From Desulfobulbaceae bacterium BRH_c16a (GTDB lineage Bacteria > Desulfobacterota > Desulfobulbia > Desulfobulbales > Desulfocapsaceae), in the NCBI GenBank assembly GCA_000961725.1, contig LADS01000037.1:118185-182184 (forward strand): DNA of 64,000 nt, in the 5' to 3' direction. Positions 23,519-36,957 of this stretch are shown here, piece after piece. Numbering within the stretch: position 1 is the first letter of the stretch; every line of letters begins with the position of its first letter. The position numbers and the translations under genes are program-made. The notes under the pieces are model-generated. The model ran no database searches. It was given only the letters and a program-made list of their open reading frames with translations, and had not been told where the DNA came from.

Positions 23519-24832
23519 CTATTTTGCTTCCAGTTGCACGGGGGGTACCCCTATTTGAACAATAGGACGGAAATTGGTGTTACCCAGTTGAAGTAGTATG
23601 CCTTTATTTTCAACAAGATCGAGCTTTTCGGTGTCGTAGACCAGCTGCAGAAATTCCGGCAATTGCGGCATGATGGGAGCAGAACGCTTGGCGGGGTGCA
23701 GGCTGTTGTCCCGATATATAAACAGCAGAACAAGCACGGCGACGACCAAGCCGCCATGGTAGAATCCCTTCCGGATCGACAACAATCTGTCAGCGGTAAA
23801 AAGCAGAAAAATAAGCCAGAAAAACTGGGCAATGACCAGGTAACAAGGAAGAATGCGCAGGGAGATCATATATTTTTTGCTTAAAAAAAGTGCGGCAAGA
23901 CTGCTGTTTATGAGAACCAAGAGGATGCATGCGATTTTCAGGTAGAAGGGATCTCGCCGAAAGATCACAACAATACCGACCAGAAACAGGATGGAAAGGA
24001 TGAGCTTCCTGGGGCCGAAAGGGCCTCTCATTTCCATGAAAAAGACCTTGGCCACCAGCGTTTCAATCCATACTTGATGTATCTCCGGTTTCCACAGGTT
24101 GCGCAGCAGAATCATATTTTCGGAGACCGAAAGCGTATAGAGGATAACGATGATCGTGAGGGCAGCCAGGAGTCTGGTCTTGCCCTTGAAGAAAAGAATG
24201 AAGCAGAGGGAAAAAGGGACAATCAACACTGAATATGGTCCCGACCAGATCAGCAGCGACAACATTGCAAAGAGCATAATATTTGCTCGTCTGGTTTTGA
24301 GCGGCTCCCAGAAAAGCAAACAGATCAGGAGGATAACAAGCACGTAGATCTGGTAGGTCAATGTTATGTAATAAAAAAGGTGATTCAGGCCGGAAAGGCC
24401 AAGGAGAAAAGGAGCGATGAAAAGAAGATAGCGGTTTTTCAGAAGTCCCGTGCAGGGTACAACCATGACGGTTATGACAGCAAAAACCGTTGCCAGAGCG
24501 AGATACATGGTCGGTTGCAGTCTGACATCTATTTTCGCAATAAAAAAAGCAAGAAGATTATTGAGAATATTATGATATCCGTTGGGTGCATGGAGGATTG
24601 CTGAGAATTCCCTGGTATTCCCGTAAAAATAGTTGAAATAGTGGCTGTTGTCCTCGACGTACAGACCTGGAAGAGCATAATTTGGCCAAGAGCGCCACAC
24701 TATGACTCCTAAACAACAGACAAAACTGGCAAAAATGAGCCATCGGTTTTCTCGCCATAAACTCTGTCTGTGAAGCGTATACACCTCGCGTCCTTGAAAA
24801 AAATCTCCCCACCGGGGTAAAGAACTTTTCAT
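23519..24832 (-). CDS. Polytopic membrane protein, GT-C-like candidate (paralog 1)
   Basis: 437 residues with about 11 hydrophobic helices and a soluble C-terminal tail of about 50 residues. It is clearly paralogous to the protein at 35617-36957; shared stretches include PGLYxED near residue 55, NGYxNxxNNL near 85, NRYLLFIxPxLLGLSGLNHL and LIWSGPYSVLxVP. An acidic pair in the first external loop is typical of GT-C glycosyltransferases (which use lipid-linked sugars), but the family is not recognised with certainty. Surrounding glycosyltransferases support a surface-glycan role. Confidence 0.6.
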   Translation of the reverse strand: MKSSLPRWGDFFQGREVYTLHRQSLWRENRWLIFASFVCCLGVIVWRSWPNYALPGLYVEDNSHYFNYFYGNTREFSAILHAPNGYHNILNNLLAFFIAKIDVRLQPTMYLALATVFAVITVMVVPCTGLLKNRYLLFIAPFLLGLSGLNHLFYYITLTYQIYVLVILLICLLFWEPLKTRRANIMLFAMLSLLIWSGPYSVLIVPFSLCFILFFKGKTRLLAALTIIVILYTLSVSENMILLRNLWKPEIHQVWIETLVAKVFFMEMRGPFGPRKLILSILFLVGIVVIFRRDPFYLKIACILLVLINSSLAALFLSKKYMISLRILPCYLVIAQFFWLIFLLFTADRLLSIRKGFYHGGLVVAVLVLLFIYRDNSLHPAKRSAPIMPQLPEFLQLVYDTEKLDLVENKGILLQLGNTNFRPIVQIGVPPVQLEAK

Positions 24833-27301: not shown

Positions 27302-30300
27302 CTACTTGATGATGACCGAGTTCTTGTTTGAGACCTGCCCTCCTGTCGCGATGTTGATATTTTGACCAAAGCTGAGAGGGGATTTAACATCATTTACTAC
27401 AATCCCCGAACCTGAATATACGGAGGCATTGCCGATACTCCCGCTGTTTACTGCGACGGTGCCGGAGTTGGCCTGTGCGCCGCTTCCTAAAGCTAGATTG
27501 AGTGCCCCGCCCCGCACGTTGGTGGTTACACTTCCGACGCTGGCATTTCGAACCACCGTTGCCCCCATATTGGCTTCGGTATTGCTCCCTGCAGCCAGAT
27601 TGACAGCCCCGGCTCCGACCGAATTCGAAACACTGCCCCGAACTTCCGCATTTTTCAGTTCAGTGGCGCCCTGGTTGGCATGAGCTCCCCCGCCGAGTGC
27701 GAGGTTGACACCGGCGCCACTTACCTTATTCGTAATACTTCCAGCGACTTTGCTGTTTTCCGCCTTCACCGCCGCCTGATTGGCGACCGCACCGCTTCCT
27801 AAAGCAAGATTCACACCAACCCCTGTCACCGTATTGGTGATGTTGCCACCCACCTTGGTATTCTTCAGGGAGGCCGCCGCCTGATTTGCTTCGGCTCCGC
27901 TGCCCAGGGCAAGGTTGACCGCCGCACCGGCCACTGTATTCTTAACGTTGCCGCCGACGGTGCTCGACTCCATTTTCACCGCACCCTGATTGGCCTTGGC
28001 ATTATTGCCAAGCGCCAGGTTGACTGCGCCGCCCGCAACCGTATTCACCGCTCCGCCCTTCAAGGTAGAGTTCTTCAAGCTTGCGGCACCCTGATTGGCC
28101 TCGACATTATTGCCGAGCGCCAGATTGACTGCACCGCCGGCTACAGTGTTGACAGTCGTGCCACCGAGTGTAGAATTCTCCATACTCACCGCTGCCTGAT
28201 TGGCCTTGGCCTTATTGCCCAAAGCCAGGTTGACGGCTGCACCGGCTGCCGTGTTGACAACCGTACCCTTCACCGTCGAATTCTTCATGTTGATCGCCGC
28301 CTGATTGGCTTCCACCTGATTGCCGAGAGCAAGGTTGACTCCGGCTCCGGCTACGGTGTTGATCGCGGTACCTTCCAGCGTCGAATTCTTCATGCTCACT
28401 GCCGCCTGATTGGCCTCCACCTTGTTGCCAAGGGCAAGGTTGACTCCGGCACCGGCCACGGTGTTGACCACTGTACCTTTCAAGGTCGAATCCTTCATGC
28501 TTACCGCCGCCTGGTTGGCATCTATCTGGTTGCCAAGCGCCAGGTTTACTCCGGCTCCGGCCACCGTATTGACCACTGTACCTTCCACCGTCGAATTTTT
28601 CATGCTCACCGCCGCCTGGTTGGCATCTATCTGGTTGCCAAGCGCCAGGTTTACTCCGGCTCCGGCCACCGTATTGACCACTGTACCTTTAATATTGGAT
28701 TGTTCTGCAACTAAAGCCGCCTGGTTGGCTTCGATCTGATTGCCAAGCGCGAGGTTCACCGCTCCACCGATCGCGCTGTTGACAACGGTGCCGTCTACAT
28801 TCGTGCCCTGAGCACTGACCGCGGCCTGATTTGCCTTAATCTGATTACCCAAAGCCAGGTTCACCGAACCACCGCCGACGGTGTTGATTACGGCACCTTT
28901 GATCCCGGTATTTTTTGCCTTGACTGCAGCTTGATTCGCTTCAATCTGATTACCGATACCGACATTGACTGCGCCCAGTCCTATTCCGGTATTGACTACG
29001 GCACCTTCAACTTTGCTCTTGTCGAGTATTGAACTCGCCTGATTGACATTGACGTTGTTGCCGATACCCGCATTGACCAGGCTATGACCTCCGGCGGTAT
29101 TGACCACAGCGCCGCTGACCGTTGTCTCCGACAGCTTGGTGCTCGCCTGATTGGCCTCCACTCGATTCCCAATCGCCGCATTTACCACATTCAACCCGAC
29201 AGCGGTATTGACAACGGCGCCTGTTACCTCGGAGTCCTTCATGATGGTCGAGGTCTGGCTGGCCGAGGTCTCGTTGCCGATCGCCGCATTTACAGCGTTT
29301 TGCGCTATCGAAGTATTGACAACGGCACCTTCAATTTTGCTGTCTTTGGTTTTAACAGCCACCTGATTGGCCTCGCTCCGGTTGCCGATCGCCGCGTTTA
29401 CCACATTTTGTCCGGCCATGGTATTGACGACAGCGCCTTTCACCTCGGTGCCTTTGAGGATCGTTGCCCCTTGAGTCGCGGAAGTTTCATTGCCGATGGC
29501 CGCATTCACTGCGTTCTGGGAAATGGCTGTATTCACAACAGCACCGGTAACCTTGGATCTGTCGAGGACGATTGACGACTGGGTCGCATCGGTTTTGTTG
29601 CCGATCGCGACATTCACCATATTCTGACCGGCGGCGGTATTGATAGTGGCTCCCTTCAGCTCGGAGTCCTTCATAATGGTCGATGACTGGGTGGCCGTGC
29701 TCTGATTGCCGATGGCAGCGTTTATCGCATTCTGGGTTACCGAAGTATTAATAACCGCTCCCGTCACCTTGGAGCGCTCCAGATCGATTGAGGACTGGGT
29801 GGCGTGGGTCTTATTGCCGATAGCCACATTCACCGCATTCTGGCCGGCGGCAGTATTGACCGTCACGCCTTTTACCTCAGAATTCTTGATGACGGTGGAA
29901 GCCTGGGTGGCCGAACTCTCGTTGCCGATCGCAGCGTTCACCGAATTCTGGACCGCCGAAGTGTTGATCACCGCCCCCTTGACCTTGCTGTCTTCGATCC
30001 GGATAACACCCTGATCGGCTGTAGTCTTGTTGCCGATGGCCACATTCACTGCATTCTGCCCGGTCATGGTATTGATTGTCGCCCCGTCGACCTCCGACCT
30101 CTTGATGATGGTCGAAGCCTGTGCTGCCTCGACTTCATTGCCGATCGCCGCATTTACCGCGGTCTGTACGGTAGAAGTATTGATAACGGCACCGCGAACC
30201 TGACTGTCCTCTATCCTCACCACATCCTGATCGGCCACAGCCTGGCTGCCGATTGCTACATTCACCCTGGTCTGTCCGGCCGAAGTGTTGATAACGGCGC

Positions 30301-31390
30301 CACTGACTTCAGATCCTTTTATTATGGTGGATGCCTGGGTGGCGGCATTCTCGTTGCCGATTGCAGCATTGACCAGGTTTTTGGAAGCGGAGGTGTTGAT
30401 TACCGCCCCATTGATCGTGCTCCCCTCCGCCCTGATAACCGACTGCTCGGCGGTGTTCTTGTTGCCGATTGCCACATTGACGGCATTGTCGTTCAAGGTC
30501 GTATTGACGGTCACACCGTTAACGGTTGAGTCTTTCAGGAGAGTGGAGGCCTGATTGGCGGTATTGTCTTTGCCGATTGCGGCATTGACAAGATTTTTTG
30601 CCTTGACCGCATTAATGACAGCACCATTGATAGTGCTGTCGGAGGATTGAATCGAAGCCTGGTTGGCGGTGTTCTTATCGCCTATTGCCACATTGACCAG
30701 GTTATCCGCCTTGACGGCATTGATGAGAGCGCCATTGACCTTGCTGCCCTGCAAGGTTACCGACGACTGGTTGGCCACATTTTCATTGCCGATTGCTGCA
30801 TTGACGCTGGTCTTGGTATCGGCGGTGTTGACCACTACCCCGTTAATCTTCGAGTCTTCGGCTGTGATGGAGTTTTGACTGGCGATATTTTTGTTGCCGA
30901 TCGCCGCATTGACTAAAGTGTCGCCTTTGGAATTGTTGACCACAACTCCGTTGACATCTGTTTTCTCAAGGGATATCGAAGACTGGTTGGCAATGTTCTC
31001 TTTGCCGATCGCAACATTTACCTCGGTCTTGGTGTTTGCCTTATTGGTGACTACACCGTTTATAGTGCCTCCACTTGCGATTATGGAATCCTGGTTTGCC
31101 TGATTGCGATCGCCGATCGCCACGTTGACACTCGGATCGTTTCGCACGTCGTTGACAACCGCGCCTTTGACATTGACATTTTTGAGATCTATTGAGGATT
31201 GACGTGCCTTATTGTCCTGTCCTATGGCAACGTTTACGTCCCTTTCGATCTTGGTCGGAATGTTGAGAACAGCTCCTTTGATGTTCGATTCGGCAAATGC
31301 ATGGGAGGACGTCACCAACAACGAAGTTAAACCTATTGCAGCCCCTAAAATCTTGCCCTTGAATTCACTCGAGAAGGATATCGGCAACAT
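27302..31390 (-). CDS. Giant secreted repeat protein (about 36 repeats of 35-36 residues)
   Basis: About 1,362 residues. An N-terminal Sec signal is visible (hydrophobic core GAAIGLTSLLVTSS, cleavage near AFA-E). The rest is tandem repeats with the frame VxGAVxNT...VNxAIGNxxxAxQxS; repeats 1-22 have 36 residues with an AIGN core, repeats 23-36 have 35 residues with LALGN. In repeats 6-17, NVAIG and NAAIG units alternate, giving a 72-residue super-repeat. There is no Cys or Trp, almost no aromatic residue in the repeats, and Asn, Gln and Gly fall in register, as in beta-solenoids and amyloid-like proteins. No autotransporter barrel, LPXTG or other anchor is visible. A GTG lies four codons upstream; I prefer the ATG at 31390. 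Function unknown; an adhesin, surface layer or matrix fibre is an inference. Confidence 0.8.
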   Translation of the reverse strand: MLPISFSSEFKGKILGAAIGLTSLLVTSSHAFAESNIKGAVLNIPTKIERDVNVAIGQDNKARQSSIDLKNVNVKGAVVNDVRNDPSVNVAIGDRNQANQDSIIASGGTINGVVTNKANTKTEVNVAIGKENIANQSSISLEKTDVNGVVVNNSKGDTLVNAAIGNKNIASQNSITAEDSKINGVVVNTADTKTSVNAAIGNENVANQSSVTLQGSKVNGALINAVKADNLVNVAIGDKNTANQASIQSSDSTINGAVINAVKAKNLVNAAIGKDNTANQASTLLKDSTVNGVTVNTTLNDNAVNVAIGNKNTAEQSVIRAEGSTINGAVINTSASKNLVNAAIGNENAATQASTIIKGSEVSGAVINTSAGQTRVNVAIGSQAVADQDVVRIEDSQVRGAVINTSTVQTAVNAAIGNEVEAAQASTIIKRSEVDGATINTMTGQNAVNVAIGNKTTADQGVIRIEDSKVKGAVINTSAVQNSVNAAIGNESSATQASTVIKNSEVKGVTVNTAAGQNAVNVAIGNKTHATQSSIDLERSKVTGAVINTSVTQNAINAAIGNQSTATQSSTIMKDSELKGATINTAAGQNMVNVAIGNKTDATQSSIVLDRSKVTGAVVNTAISQNAVNAAIGNETSATQGATILKGTEVKGAVVNTMAGQNVVNAAIGNRSEANQVAVKTKDSKIEGAVVNTSIAQNAVNAAIGNETSASQTSTIMKDSEVTGAVVNTAVGLNVVNAAIGNRVEANQASTKLSETTVSGAVVNTAGGHSLVNAGIGNNVNVNQASSILDKSKVEGAVVNTGIGLGAVNVGIGNQIEANQAAVKAKNTGIKGAVINTVGGGSVNLALGNQIKANQAAVSAQGTNVDGTVVNSAIGGAVNLALGNQIEANQAALVAEQSNIKGTVVNTVAGAGVNLALGNQIDANQAAVSMKNSTVEGTVVNTVAGAGVNLALGNQIDANQAAVSMKDSTLKGTVVNTVAGAGVNLALGNKVEANQAAVSMKNSTLEGTAINTVAGAGVNLALGNQVEANQAAINMKNSTVKGTVVNTAAGAAVNLALGNKAKANQAAVSMENSTLGGTTVNTVAGGAVNLALGNNVEANQGAASLKNSTLKGGAVNTVAGGAVNLALGNNAKANQGAVKMESSTVGGNVKNTVAGAAVNLALGSGAEANQAAASLKNTKVGGNITNTVTGVGVNLALGSGAVANQAAVKAENSKVAGSITNKVSGAGVNLALGGGAHANQGATELKNAEVRGSVSNSVGAGAVNLAAGSNTEANMGATVVRNASVGSVTTNVRGGALNLALGSGAQANSGTVAVNSGSIGNASVYSGSGIVVNDVKSPLSFGQNINIATGGQVSNKNSVIIK

Positions 31391-31473
31391 AATATCACCC
31401 ACTTTTTGTCAGATTTTCGCGCGCTTGGAAGGAAGTACAATTCGCTCCTGAACTTATACATTAAACCACATTA

Positions 31474-35616: not shown

Positions 35617-36957
35617 ATGAAACAGATTACGCCGCATTTCACCAGATACCTGCAGAACAGGAGCAGCTATTTTTTACAGGCGGGGGAAGCGGTAAATCCC
35701 GAAAGAAATGCTCTTTCTCTCGGCCTCATATTTTTTACGGCAATCCTGGTGCTGCGCTCCTGGGAAAATTTTTCACAGCCTGGTCTCTACGCCGAGGATT
35801 CTATTCACTACTTCAATTTCTATTATGGCAATATTCGAACGCTGGGCGATATCTTTCAGCATCCTAACGGATATTATAACTTGTTCAACAATCTGGCTGC
35901 CTATCTTACGGCAAAGGCGGATGTCGGACTGCATCCTTTGATCTACCAGTCGGTCTGCATATGTTTCTGCATTCTCACCGTTACGGCATTTTCTCTATCC
36001 GGCCTGATCACCAACAGATATCTTTTATTTATCAGCCCATTGCTGCTCGGCCTTTCCGGTCTCAACCATCTCTACTACTACATCTCCCTGACCTTTCAGA
36101 TGTACGTCGTGGTCCTGATGCTCCTCGTTATCATGCTCTGGAGGAGAAGAGCCCCCGCCGCTGTTCAACTGCTGCTCTTTGTATTTATGGGTTTTCTCAT
36201 CTGGTCGGGCCCCTACTCGGTACTGGTTGTGCCTGTAGCTCTTGCCTTTATCTTTTTCTTCCATGACAAGACACTACAGACTGTCGGCCTGCTGCTGATT
36301 GCCATTGCGTATACTCTCTCGGTTACCAAGAGCACTATCATGCTGGAAAATATCCTCAATCCCGATATCCTGCTGCTGTGGGGTTCCACTCTGGTGACTG
36401 AGGTCTTTTTCATGGGATTCAAGGATTCGATCAACGCCGAAAAACTGATTCTTGTTGCCGTGACCTTTCTTACTGTATTTTTTGCCTTGCGAGGGGACAG
36501 GTTTTACCTGAAAACGGCGATACTCTTCCTGATTATTATAATCGCCTCCTTTGCTCCTTTATTACTGAGCAAAAAATATCTTCTTTACCAGACTATCTAT
36601 CCCTGTCATCTGGTTATTGCGCAATTTTTCTGGCTGGTTTTTGTCCTTGTTACCGCCGACAGGCTTCTGGCTCGATGGCCGGCCCTGCAACATCCTGGCG
36701 GTGGTGCGCTTATTGTCGTATTTGCAATATTTATTCTTGCCGACAACATCGAACACCAGGACAAGCGGAAGGTACCTGTTCTTGCTGCCATGCCGCGATT
36801 TCTGGAGAAAGTAAAAGAAGCGGAAAATATGGGCCTAGCCGAAGAAGGCAGAAAGATGATCATTTCCACCAACGGCACAAGCATATTCAAAGCTGCCGCC
36901 ATTGTCGGGGACCGATCAAAAAATGCCACGCTCGTTGACCGGATTCATGTGCAGTAG
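35617..36957 (+). CDS. Polytopic membrane protein, GT-C-like candidate (paralog 2)
   Basis: 446 residues, about 11 helices, paralogous over the full length to the protein at 23519-24832. Shared features: PGLYAED near residue 58, IHYFNFYYGN, HPNGYYNLFNNL, NRYLLFISPLLLGLSGLNHL, FLIWSGPYSVLVVP and SKKYLLYQTIYPCHLVIAQFFWL. A soluble tail of about 55 residues follows the last helix. The Glu-Asp pair in the first loop would fit a GT-C enzyme. The two copies lie on opposite strands, 11 kb apart, enclosing the repeat protein and O-acetylation genes. Confidence 0.6.
   Translation: MKQITPHFTRYLQNRSSYFLQAGEAVNPERNALSLGLIFFTAILVLRSWENFSQPGLYAEDSIHYFNFYYGNIRTLGDIFQHPNGYYNLFNNLAAYLTAKADVGLHPLIYQSVCICFCILTVTAFSLSGLITNRYLLFISPLLLGLSGLNHLYYYISLTFQMYVVVLMLLVIMLWRRRAPAAVQLLLFVFMGFLIWSGPYSVLVVPVALAFIFFFHDKTLQTVGLLLIAIAYTLSVTKSTIMLENILNPDILLLWGSTLVTEVFFMGFKDSINAEKLILVAVTFLTVFFALRGDRFYLKTAILFLIIIIASFAPLLLSKKYLLYQTIYPCHLVIAQFFWLVFVLVTADRLLARWPALQHPGGGALIVVFAIFILADNIEHQDKRKVPVLAAMPRFLEKVKEAENMGLAEEGRKMIISTNGTSIFKAAAIVGDRSKNATLVDRIHVQ

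Follow-up and report, generated by a model that had tools for sequence, protein, structure and literature searches.

The window, a 64,000-nucleotide stretch of DNA, carries a giant repeat gene on its minus strand, running from 31390 to 27302 and read as an open reading frame (ORF) with a product of 1362 amino acids. The host is an uncultured bacterium, a relative of sulfate reducers. The gene (27302..31390, stop included) was delimited by ORF, repeat and codon analysis; it starts with ATG at 31390, with GTG at 31402 as a possible alternative, and its stop codon ends at 27302. Judged by eye from the translation, residues 1-33 (31292..31390) read as a putative Sec signal peptide, likely cleaved after AFA. 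Next comes an N-terminal segment, ESNIKGAVLNIPTKIERD (residues 34-51, 31238..31291), a degenerate first unit. This piece precedes 36 units, which repeat analysis orders into 21 units of 36 residues with an alternating 72-residue super-repeat (residues 52-807, 28970..31237), 13 units of 35 residues (residues 808-1262, 27605..28969) and one unit of 34 residues (residues 1263-1296, 27503..27604). The final unit runs into a conserved C-terminal tail that ends in GIVVNDVKSPLSFGQNINIATGGQVSNKNSVIIK (residues 1297-1362, 27305..27502).

This count agrees with the original prediction of about 36 repeats behind a signal peptide, and repeat analysis likewise recovers its two sub-families, AIGN (36 residues) and LALGN (35 residues). 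At lags of 72 and 36 residues the autocorrelation of the part beyond residue 33 is 0.387 and 0.335, respectively, against a maximum of 0.132 over all lags up to 119 in 200 shuffles. The 72-residue super-repeat that had also been proposed stands in the 36-residue section, where mean unit identity is 0.615 at the two-unit lag versus 0.512 at the one-unit lag (a difference reached in 0 of 5000 unit-order shuffles), but not in the 35-residue section, where 1628 of 5000 shuffles reach the difference. The composition is strongly biased, free of Cys and Trp and, beyond residue 33, with a single Phe and a single Tyr, as had been noted. Compared with the orthologue at locus L009 over 1284 aligned codons, the gene differs at 0.202, 0.156 and 0.555 of codon positions 1, 2 and 3, respectively, and at 0.589 of four-fold sites, a pattern that points to purifying selection and therefore to a real gene. 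A promoter scan upstream, which gave five sigma-70-like sites, all on the plus strand and none on the minus strand, and no terminator, is uninformative for the giant gene.

The giant matches no curlin profile and no profile of a known adhesin, in line with what had been claimed for it. No Pfam family reaches its cut-off (Endonuclease_5, at E 0.12, scores 12.5 bits where 23.4 are required and counts as noise), and NCBIfam gives zero matches at E up to 10. Pfam and NCBIfam (E up to 10) find no YadA-type C-terminal anchor of trimeric autotransporters in the giant, Pfam finds no TPS domain of two-partner secretion in it, and no TpsB-type domain appears at E 0.001 in seven window proteins nearby. 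A characterised adhesin or ice-binding family, named in the original prediction as counter-evidence, was sought in Pfam, NCBIfam and the PDB, and none matched the giant. The best PDB matches, with E values down to 2.9e-4 in one search and 2.5e-5 in another, are to designed pentatricopeptide proteins and were rejected as an artefact of the common 35-residue period: those designs consist of 35-residue helical repeats, and the units of the giant are rich in Val, Asn and Gly. Weaker PDB matches (E 0.05 and above) include the pentapeptide-repeat protein NP275-NP276 (E 0.087), which has a beta-helix fold. In other proteins of the repeat (R) family, Pfam matches to YajR_YAM, CsgE, TMEM65, LBP_C, FBO_C and Glug were taken as artefacts of composition or period, as were G-patch_2 (42.8 bits versus 26) and Biotin_lipoyl (22.9 versus 22.1), even though these two exceed their cut-offs. 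By profile evidence the R family is not curlin: PF07012 curlin repeats (about 23 amino acids) were not found in the giant's own genome, Curlin_rpt matches occur in one of 57 relatives, and the R profile scores 0.1% against four curlins (like the hhalign percentages given below for G, F and L, a value for a single-pair comparison and not database-wide).

Giants with the common conserved tail comprise 11 proteins in nine genomes, a set chosen from loci already read and partly for length. The tail pattern is present in all 11, and the segment at residues 34-51 is alike by eye in eight and not in those of L073 and L136; the displayed part of the L125 protein ends too early to judge. The wider R family reaches into other genera and families, extends from a two-unit protein of 93 amino acids to giants of more than 1800, and includes fusions of 35/36-residue units with a subtilase and with a FecR domain. 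The giant's own genome holds 13 R matches, spread over the window and six further contigs.

Both in relatives and elsewhere in this genome, on a different contig, R genes belong to a conserved cassette whose other members are A, a small secreted protein; G, a lipoprotein; L, an LPP20-like protein; and F, a small membrane-anchored protein. A survey of the neighbours of homologues, a step the original prediction had proposed, places this CsgG-like cassette contiguous with the giant gene in six of the nine giant-bearing genomes. The earlier remark that no secretion gene is adjacent is thus accurate within the window but misleading, given those six genomes and the copy in the host itself, which lies at L016 beside an R paralogue; the single G of this genome is on contig C16, and the window giant is on a different contig. 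Among 17 places with G, 15 have L, 13 have R, 12 have A and 11 have F, contig ends and missed short ORFs being scored as absences. In a larger set of 49 G places, 28 have R no more than 5 kb away, and in 22 of these the distance is at most 1 kb; at least one of the scored absences, L122, does have an R there. Outside the order, R adjoins G at three of five places, namely G343 (where R is 93 amino acids long, with two units), G628 and G572, with A also beside them at G343 and G628; G390 has no R units beside G, and G480 begins at G. Across 257 genomes of the order, 27 carry both R and G, three R only, 17 G only and 210 neither (Fisher p 9e-22), and the corresponding counts by genus are 12, 1, 5 and 51 (p 8e-9), although these p values are overstated because the genomes are related. 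Three genomes have R with no G detected: G005, which is 93% complete, has several R matches, and G001 (84% complete) and G227 have one each.

On profile comparison, G is a remote homologue of CsgG. With hhalign it scores 96.5% over 242 columns against 17 CsgG-family proteins, compared with at most 2.2% for 11 control families, and 85.9% over 236 columns against E. coli CsgG alone. Among 17 G proteins, Pfam CsgG matches four weakly (best E 0.0041; one of them scores 13.4 bits, below the cut-off of 20.8) and the NCBIfam HfaB model (NF037935) matches three weakly (best E 0.014). PF03783 at E 0.001 reports other genes of the host genome and not G, and a PDB search with the G profile, taken to E 10, retrieves no CsgG chain. 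G proteins have a peptidoglycan-binding domain (PG_binding_1 in nine of 17, best E 4.4e-5), a long linker of Gln, Ala and Pro, and a C-terminus that is conserved. The first ideas that F is CsgF and that L is CsgE are unsupported, at 8.2% and 0.1%, respectively, in comparisons whose Csg side consisted of two sequences only and which had no positive control. Pfam CsgF gives E 0.098 on one F protein, and F may bear a remote likeness to CsgF. The C-terminus of A resembles a repeat half-unit only suggestively: a score of at least 2 bits is reached by ten of 21 related A proteins and by 19 of 420 shuffled copies, the best shuffled score (7.3) comes close to the best real score (8.4), and profile comparison gives 4.7%.

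Pores of the CsgG type are known from the curli system and, by similarity, from the Caulobacter holdfast anchor. Curli (type VIII secretion; csgBAC-csgDEFG) likewise has a CsgG-family lipoprotein gene next to genes for secreted repeat proteins that are rich in Asn, Gln and Gly and vary greatly in length (PMC3521004, PMC10192328). The R cassette differs from curli in its units of 35-36 residues, compared with about 23 in curlin, which give no curlin profile match; in having no recognised CsgE or CsgF homologue; in the domain, linker and C-terminus of G described above; and in A and L, which are unlike the Csg proteins compared. A canonical csg locus, found in one relative (G027), looks different from the cassette. 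In Caulobacter, the CsgG-like HfaB is needed for surface display of HfaA and HfaD, which both hold the holdfast polysaccharide (PMC6707917). That system shares with the cassette a CsgG-like lipoprotein with non-curlin surface clients, and its gene set differs as far as compared. FapC, like the giant, has imperfect repeats rich in Asn and Gln; in FapC each forms one beta-solenoid layer, and they are almost invariably three in number, unlike the 36 units of the giant (PMC12822426). The PDB searches returned no FapC chain among their matches, in a PDB copy that may hold none. Neisseria MafA, an outer-membrane lipoprotein described as an exporter and compared with CsgG, may be comparable to G; its known client is of another kind than R, and a homologue is reported in Desulfobulbus elongatus (PMC7738311).

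Since the R genes of relatives adjoin a seemingly undescribed cousin of the curli exporter, the giant probably helps to build a novel type of bacterial surface fibre. We favour, with reasonable confidence, its being a very large structural subunit in a curli-like system of the CsgG type that would export proteins and form surface fibres in Desulfobulbales and in some other Desulfobacterota. Weighing against this reading are the weak or missing matches of G to CsgG in Pfam and the PDB, the low scores of F, L and R against CsgF, CsgE and curlin, the three genomes with R and no detected G, the 17 with G and no detected R, the separate contigs of the window giant and G, the possible alternative exporter next to some cassettes, and, outside the order, the lack of R units beside G at G390. 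The original prediction of an undescribed system is supported by the CsgG-like cassette of the relatives, and no description of the R-A-G-L-F system was found in the open-access literature, subscription papers lying outside the scope of the search. Sec would deliver the giant into the periplasm, and the lipoprotein G would conduct it, unfolded, across the outer membrane. Outside the cell, the 35/36-residue Asn/Gly/Val units would pile into a beta-solenoid, and giants and shorter R proteins could together build a fibre or coat. A may act as cap, nucleator or anchor, and L and F would be accessory parts. Near the window giant, Pfam identifies two family 2 glycosyltransferases, a nucleotidyltransferase, an MBOAT protein and an AlgX-like protein; its position away from the cassette, amid such exopolysaccharide-type genes, fits a role in the matrix.

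These neighbours would also suit a system in which R proteins exported by G tether exopolysaccharide to the cell and do not form free fibres, a possibility that we hold doubtful and for which HfaB offers the precedent. The weak HfaB profile match in three G proteins agrees with it; the lack of any NCBIfam match in the giant and of any Hfa match at 0.1 in four R-containing proteins does not. The two readings overlap, sharing the pore and differing in end use, so their probabilities are not mutually exclusive. It is unlikely that the giant is instead a long secreted adhesin or matrix protein, a stand-alone beta-solenoid leaving by another route such as a MacAB/TolC-like set, with G only anchoring it or serving other clients. 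Genes for TolC, HlyD and an ABC ATPase do follow the cassette in L009, L016, L062 and L065, and for TolC in L066, Pfam recognises OEP and HlyD domains at L016 and MacB_PCD at L009, and G005 has R proteins with no G detected; however, this TolC-like set was seen at five of 17 G places read, where some flanks were too short for a verdict, whereas R is found next to G in several families of the order and also beyond it.

Much less probable is membership of a known surface class, be it trimeric autotransporter, two-partner secretion exoprotein, ice-binding protein or classical curlin. Short motifs do recall curlins and YadA heads, and the FecR-fused paralogue gives a weak Hexapep match (E 0.05), but the searches of the giant support none of these classes and the curlin results argue directly against the last. 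That the gene is a repeat-driven spurious ORF or functionless low-complexity drift is barely credible: its biased composition would suit such an artefact, and the low rate of second-position change relative to four-fold sites, together with the R relatives in other genera and families, speaks against it.

If the surface-fibre reading is true, type VIII-like secretion would extend to non-curlin clients, a peptidoglycan-binding pore protein and giant solenoid-like subunits, and uncultured Desulfobacterota would gain a candidate matrix fibre. A more tentative extension is a separate CsgG-dependent export class, in which the 35/36-residue unit would act as a portable export-and-assembly module, one pore would serve many clients, and enzymes or sensors fused to the unit could enter the surface fibre. 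R proteins range from two to dozens of units and thereby offer a test set for client passage and assembly by CsgG-type pores.

The giant is encoded on the minus strand, from 31390 to 27302, and its 1362 residues comprise 36 repeat units: 21 are 36 residues long, 13 have 35 and one has 34, while the final unit carries the tail. It contains neither Cys nor Trp and has two aromatic residues after residue 33, bearing out the original prediction of a genuine repeat protein. In the 36-residue section, identity is 0.615 between alternate units versus 0.512 between neighbours, a difference that none of 5000 shuffles reached. This alternation is a 72-residue super-repeat, as had been proposed; in the 35-residue section the same test found no alternate-unit likeness. 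The gene differs from its orthologue at locus L009 by 0.589 at four-fold sites and 0.156 at second codon positions, so the protein is under selective constraint. The same tail ends all 11 giants compared (nine genomes), and a segment following the signal peptide is common to eight of them, as judged by eye; both parts may serve as signals for export or capping.

Pfam and NCBIfam gave the giant no match above cut-off, and its top PDB matches, designed 35-residue helical repeats, were judged an artefact of the period. The short members of its repeat family (R) had no match in PDB. Consistent with the predicted undescribed fibre or adhesin, the giant matched no known adhesin or ice-binding family in these three databases. 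One R protein (L070:9653-10693, genome G042) exceeds the cut-off of Pfam G-patch_2 at 42.8 bits, presumably a repeat artefact.

The relevance of the giant is explained by its surroundings in relatives. A survey of its homologs' neighbours uncovered a cassette of R, a small secreted protein that appears acidic by eye (A), a CsgG-like lipoprotein (G), an LPP20-like protein (L) and a small protein whose N-terminus has a hydrophobic stretch (F). At 17 G places, L is found at 15, R at 13, A at 12 and F at 11, some absences being contig ends. Gene order varies: giant, short R, A, G, L, F at L009; short R, A, G, L, F, giant at L064; and G, L, F, giant, short R, A at L010. The giant had been thought to lack an adjacent secretion gene. 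This holds within the window, where A, G, L and F profiles found nothing at E 0.001, leaving the giant as sole cassette member, flanked by genes for a nucleotidyltransferase and an MBOAT protein, but not in those three relatives. In the giant's own genome, all five cassette genes, with a short R, are present on another contig, C16 (locus L016), where the single G found lies. In another family of the order, the places read combine A, G and F with an R of ~200 aa; L was not detected there. TolC/HlyD/ABC sets lie downstream of the cassette at L009:20702-24709 (with a MacB-like permease), L016:14209-17795, L062 and L065. In the window, exopolysaccharide-type genes are flanked by two membrane proteins (23519-24832 and 35617-36957) that were judged by eye to be polytopic and alike and that have no Pfam match at 0.001.

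G is a remote CsgG homologue, as judged from profile comparison. An hhalign comparison of 40 G proteins against 17 CsgG-family proteins (E. coli CsgG and 16 of 25 Pfam-hit loci from relatives) gave 96.5% over 242 columns, versus 2.2% at most for 11 other families; against E. coli CsgG alone the G profile gave 85.9%. The lipoprotein Cys regions coincide in an alignment of a smaller set. Simpler searches detect little of this: Pfam CsgG matches four of 17 G members (best E 0.0041), NCBIfam HfaB weakly matches three, a PF03783 search of the own genome at E 0.001 missed G, and the G profile returned no CsgG chain from PDB. Downstream of the CsgG-like part comes a PG_binding_1 domain, matched in nine of the 17 (best E 4.4e-5), then a variable linker and, in 16, a conserved end with a terminal Trp; in genome G343, TPR repeats replace this end.

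R and G co-occur across 257 genomes of Desulfobulbales (both 27, R only 3, G only 17, neither 210; p 9e-22) and by genus (12, 1, 5 and 51, respectively; p 8e-9), although these p values overstate independence, the genomes being related. R lies within 5 kb of G at at least 28 of 49 G places. The three genomes with R in which G was not found (G005, G001, G227) count against the link. G occurs in 11 of 395 genomes drawn from the phylum. Outside the order, R adjoins G at three of five places fetched (G343, with a 93-aa R of two units, G628 and G572), with A present in the first two; the G480 place begins at G, so R cannot be read there, and in G390 small secreted proteins without recognised R units stand beside G.

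The giant's own genome, assembled to 6.5 Mb in 72 contigs (completeness 96.6%, contamination 6.0%), carries R matches on six further contigs. They include proteins of 849, 393, 338 and 255 aa, a contig-end piece, and fusions to a subtilase and to a FecR domain. Among 57 genomes searched as relatives, its own included, 15 match the giant at E 0.001; the named records are metagenome assemblies labelled Desulfobulbaceae bacterium or Deltaproteobacteria bacterium. The subtilase fusion (L017:7982-9928, contig C35; Peptidase_S8, E 3.6e-28) adjoins two genes named by eye, one resembling a sigma factor and the other a putative anti-sigma factor, a trio seen in four genomes (L017, L060, L063, L076). 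In the FecR protein (L019:6718-7587, contig C26; E 3.9e-12), the FecR domain precedes about two units. Repeat proteins of ~560 aa in G006 (L140:3757-5427) and G003 (L141:4124-5806) share the C-terminus IMNSVVSGVE.., and matches of similar frame length occur in G001, G005 and G009.

A Sec signal, recognised by eye, would bring the giant to the periplasm, and G, by its remote homology, is the likely outer-membrane pore. From the Asn/Gly/Val pattern and the period, a beta-solenoid is the probable fold of the stacked units. Rungs of such solenoids are spaced ~0.48 nm apart; at one rung per unit, 36 units would be ~17 nm long. A fibre or coat may then form, by analogy with curli and the functional amyloid Fap (PMC10192328, PMC12822426). 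The R/G system may resemble curli in how it works, yet it is distinct from curli: tests for curlin repeats were negative, and the Csg alignments, which were shallow, revealed neither CsgE nor CsgF. Close to it in logic is the Caulobacter holdfast anchor (Hfa), in which, according to PMC6707917, a CsgG-like lipoprotein has other clients; among the repeat proteins tested, none matched Hfa profiles. On these grounds we call the R/G system a new variant of CsgG-type secretion. Distant G paralogues (L123:11973-13363, G034; L129:4184-6102, G196) adjoin secreted proteins built from repeats of a different kind, which suggests further client classes for this pore family.
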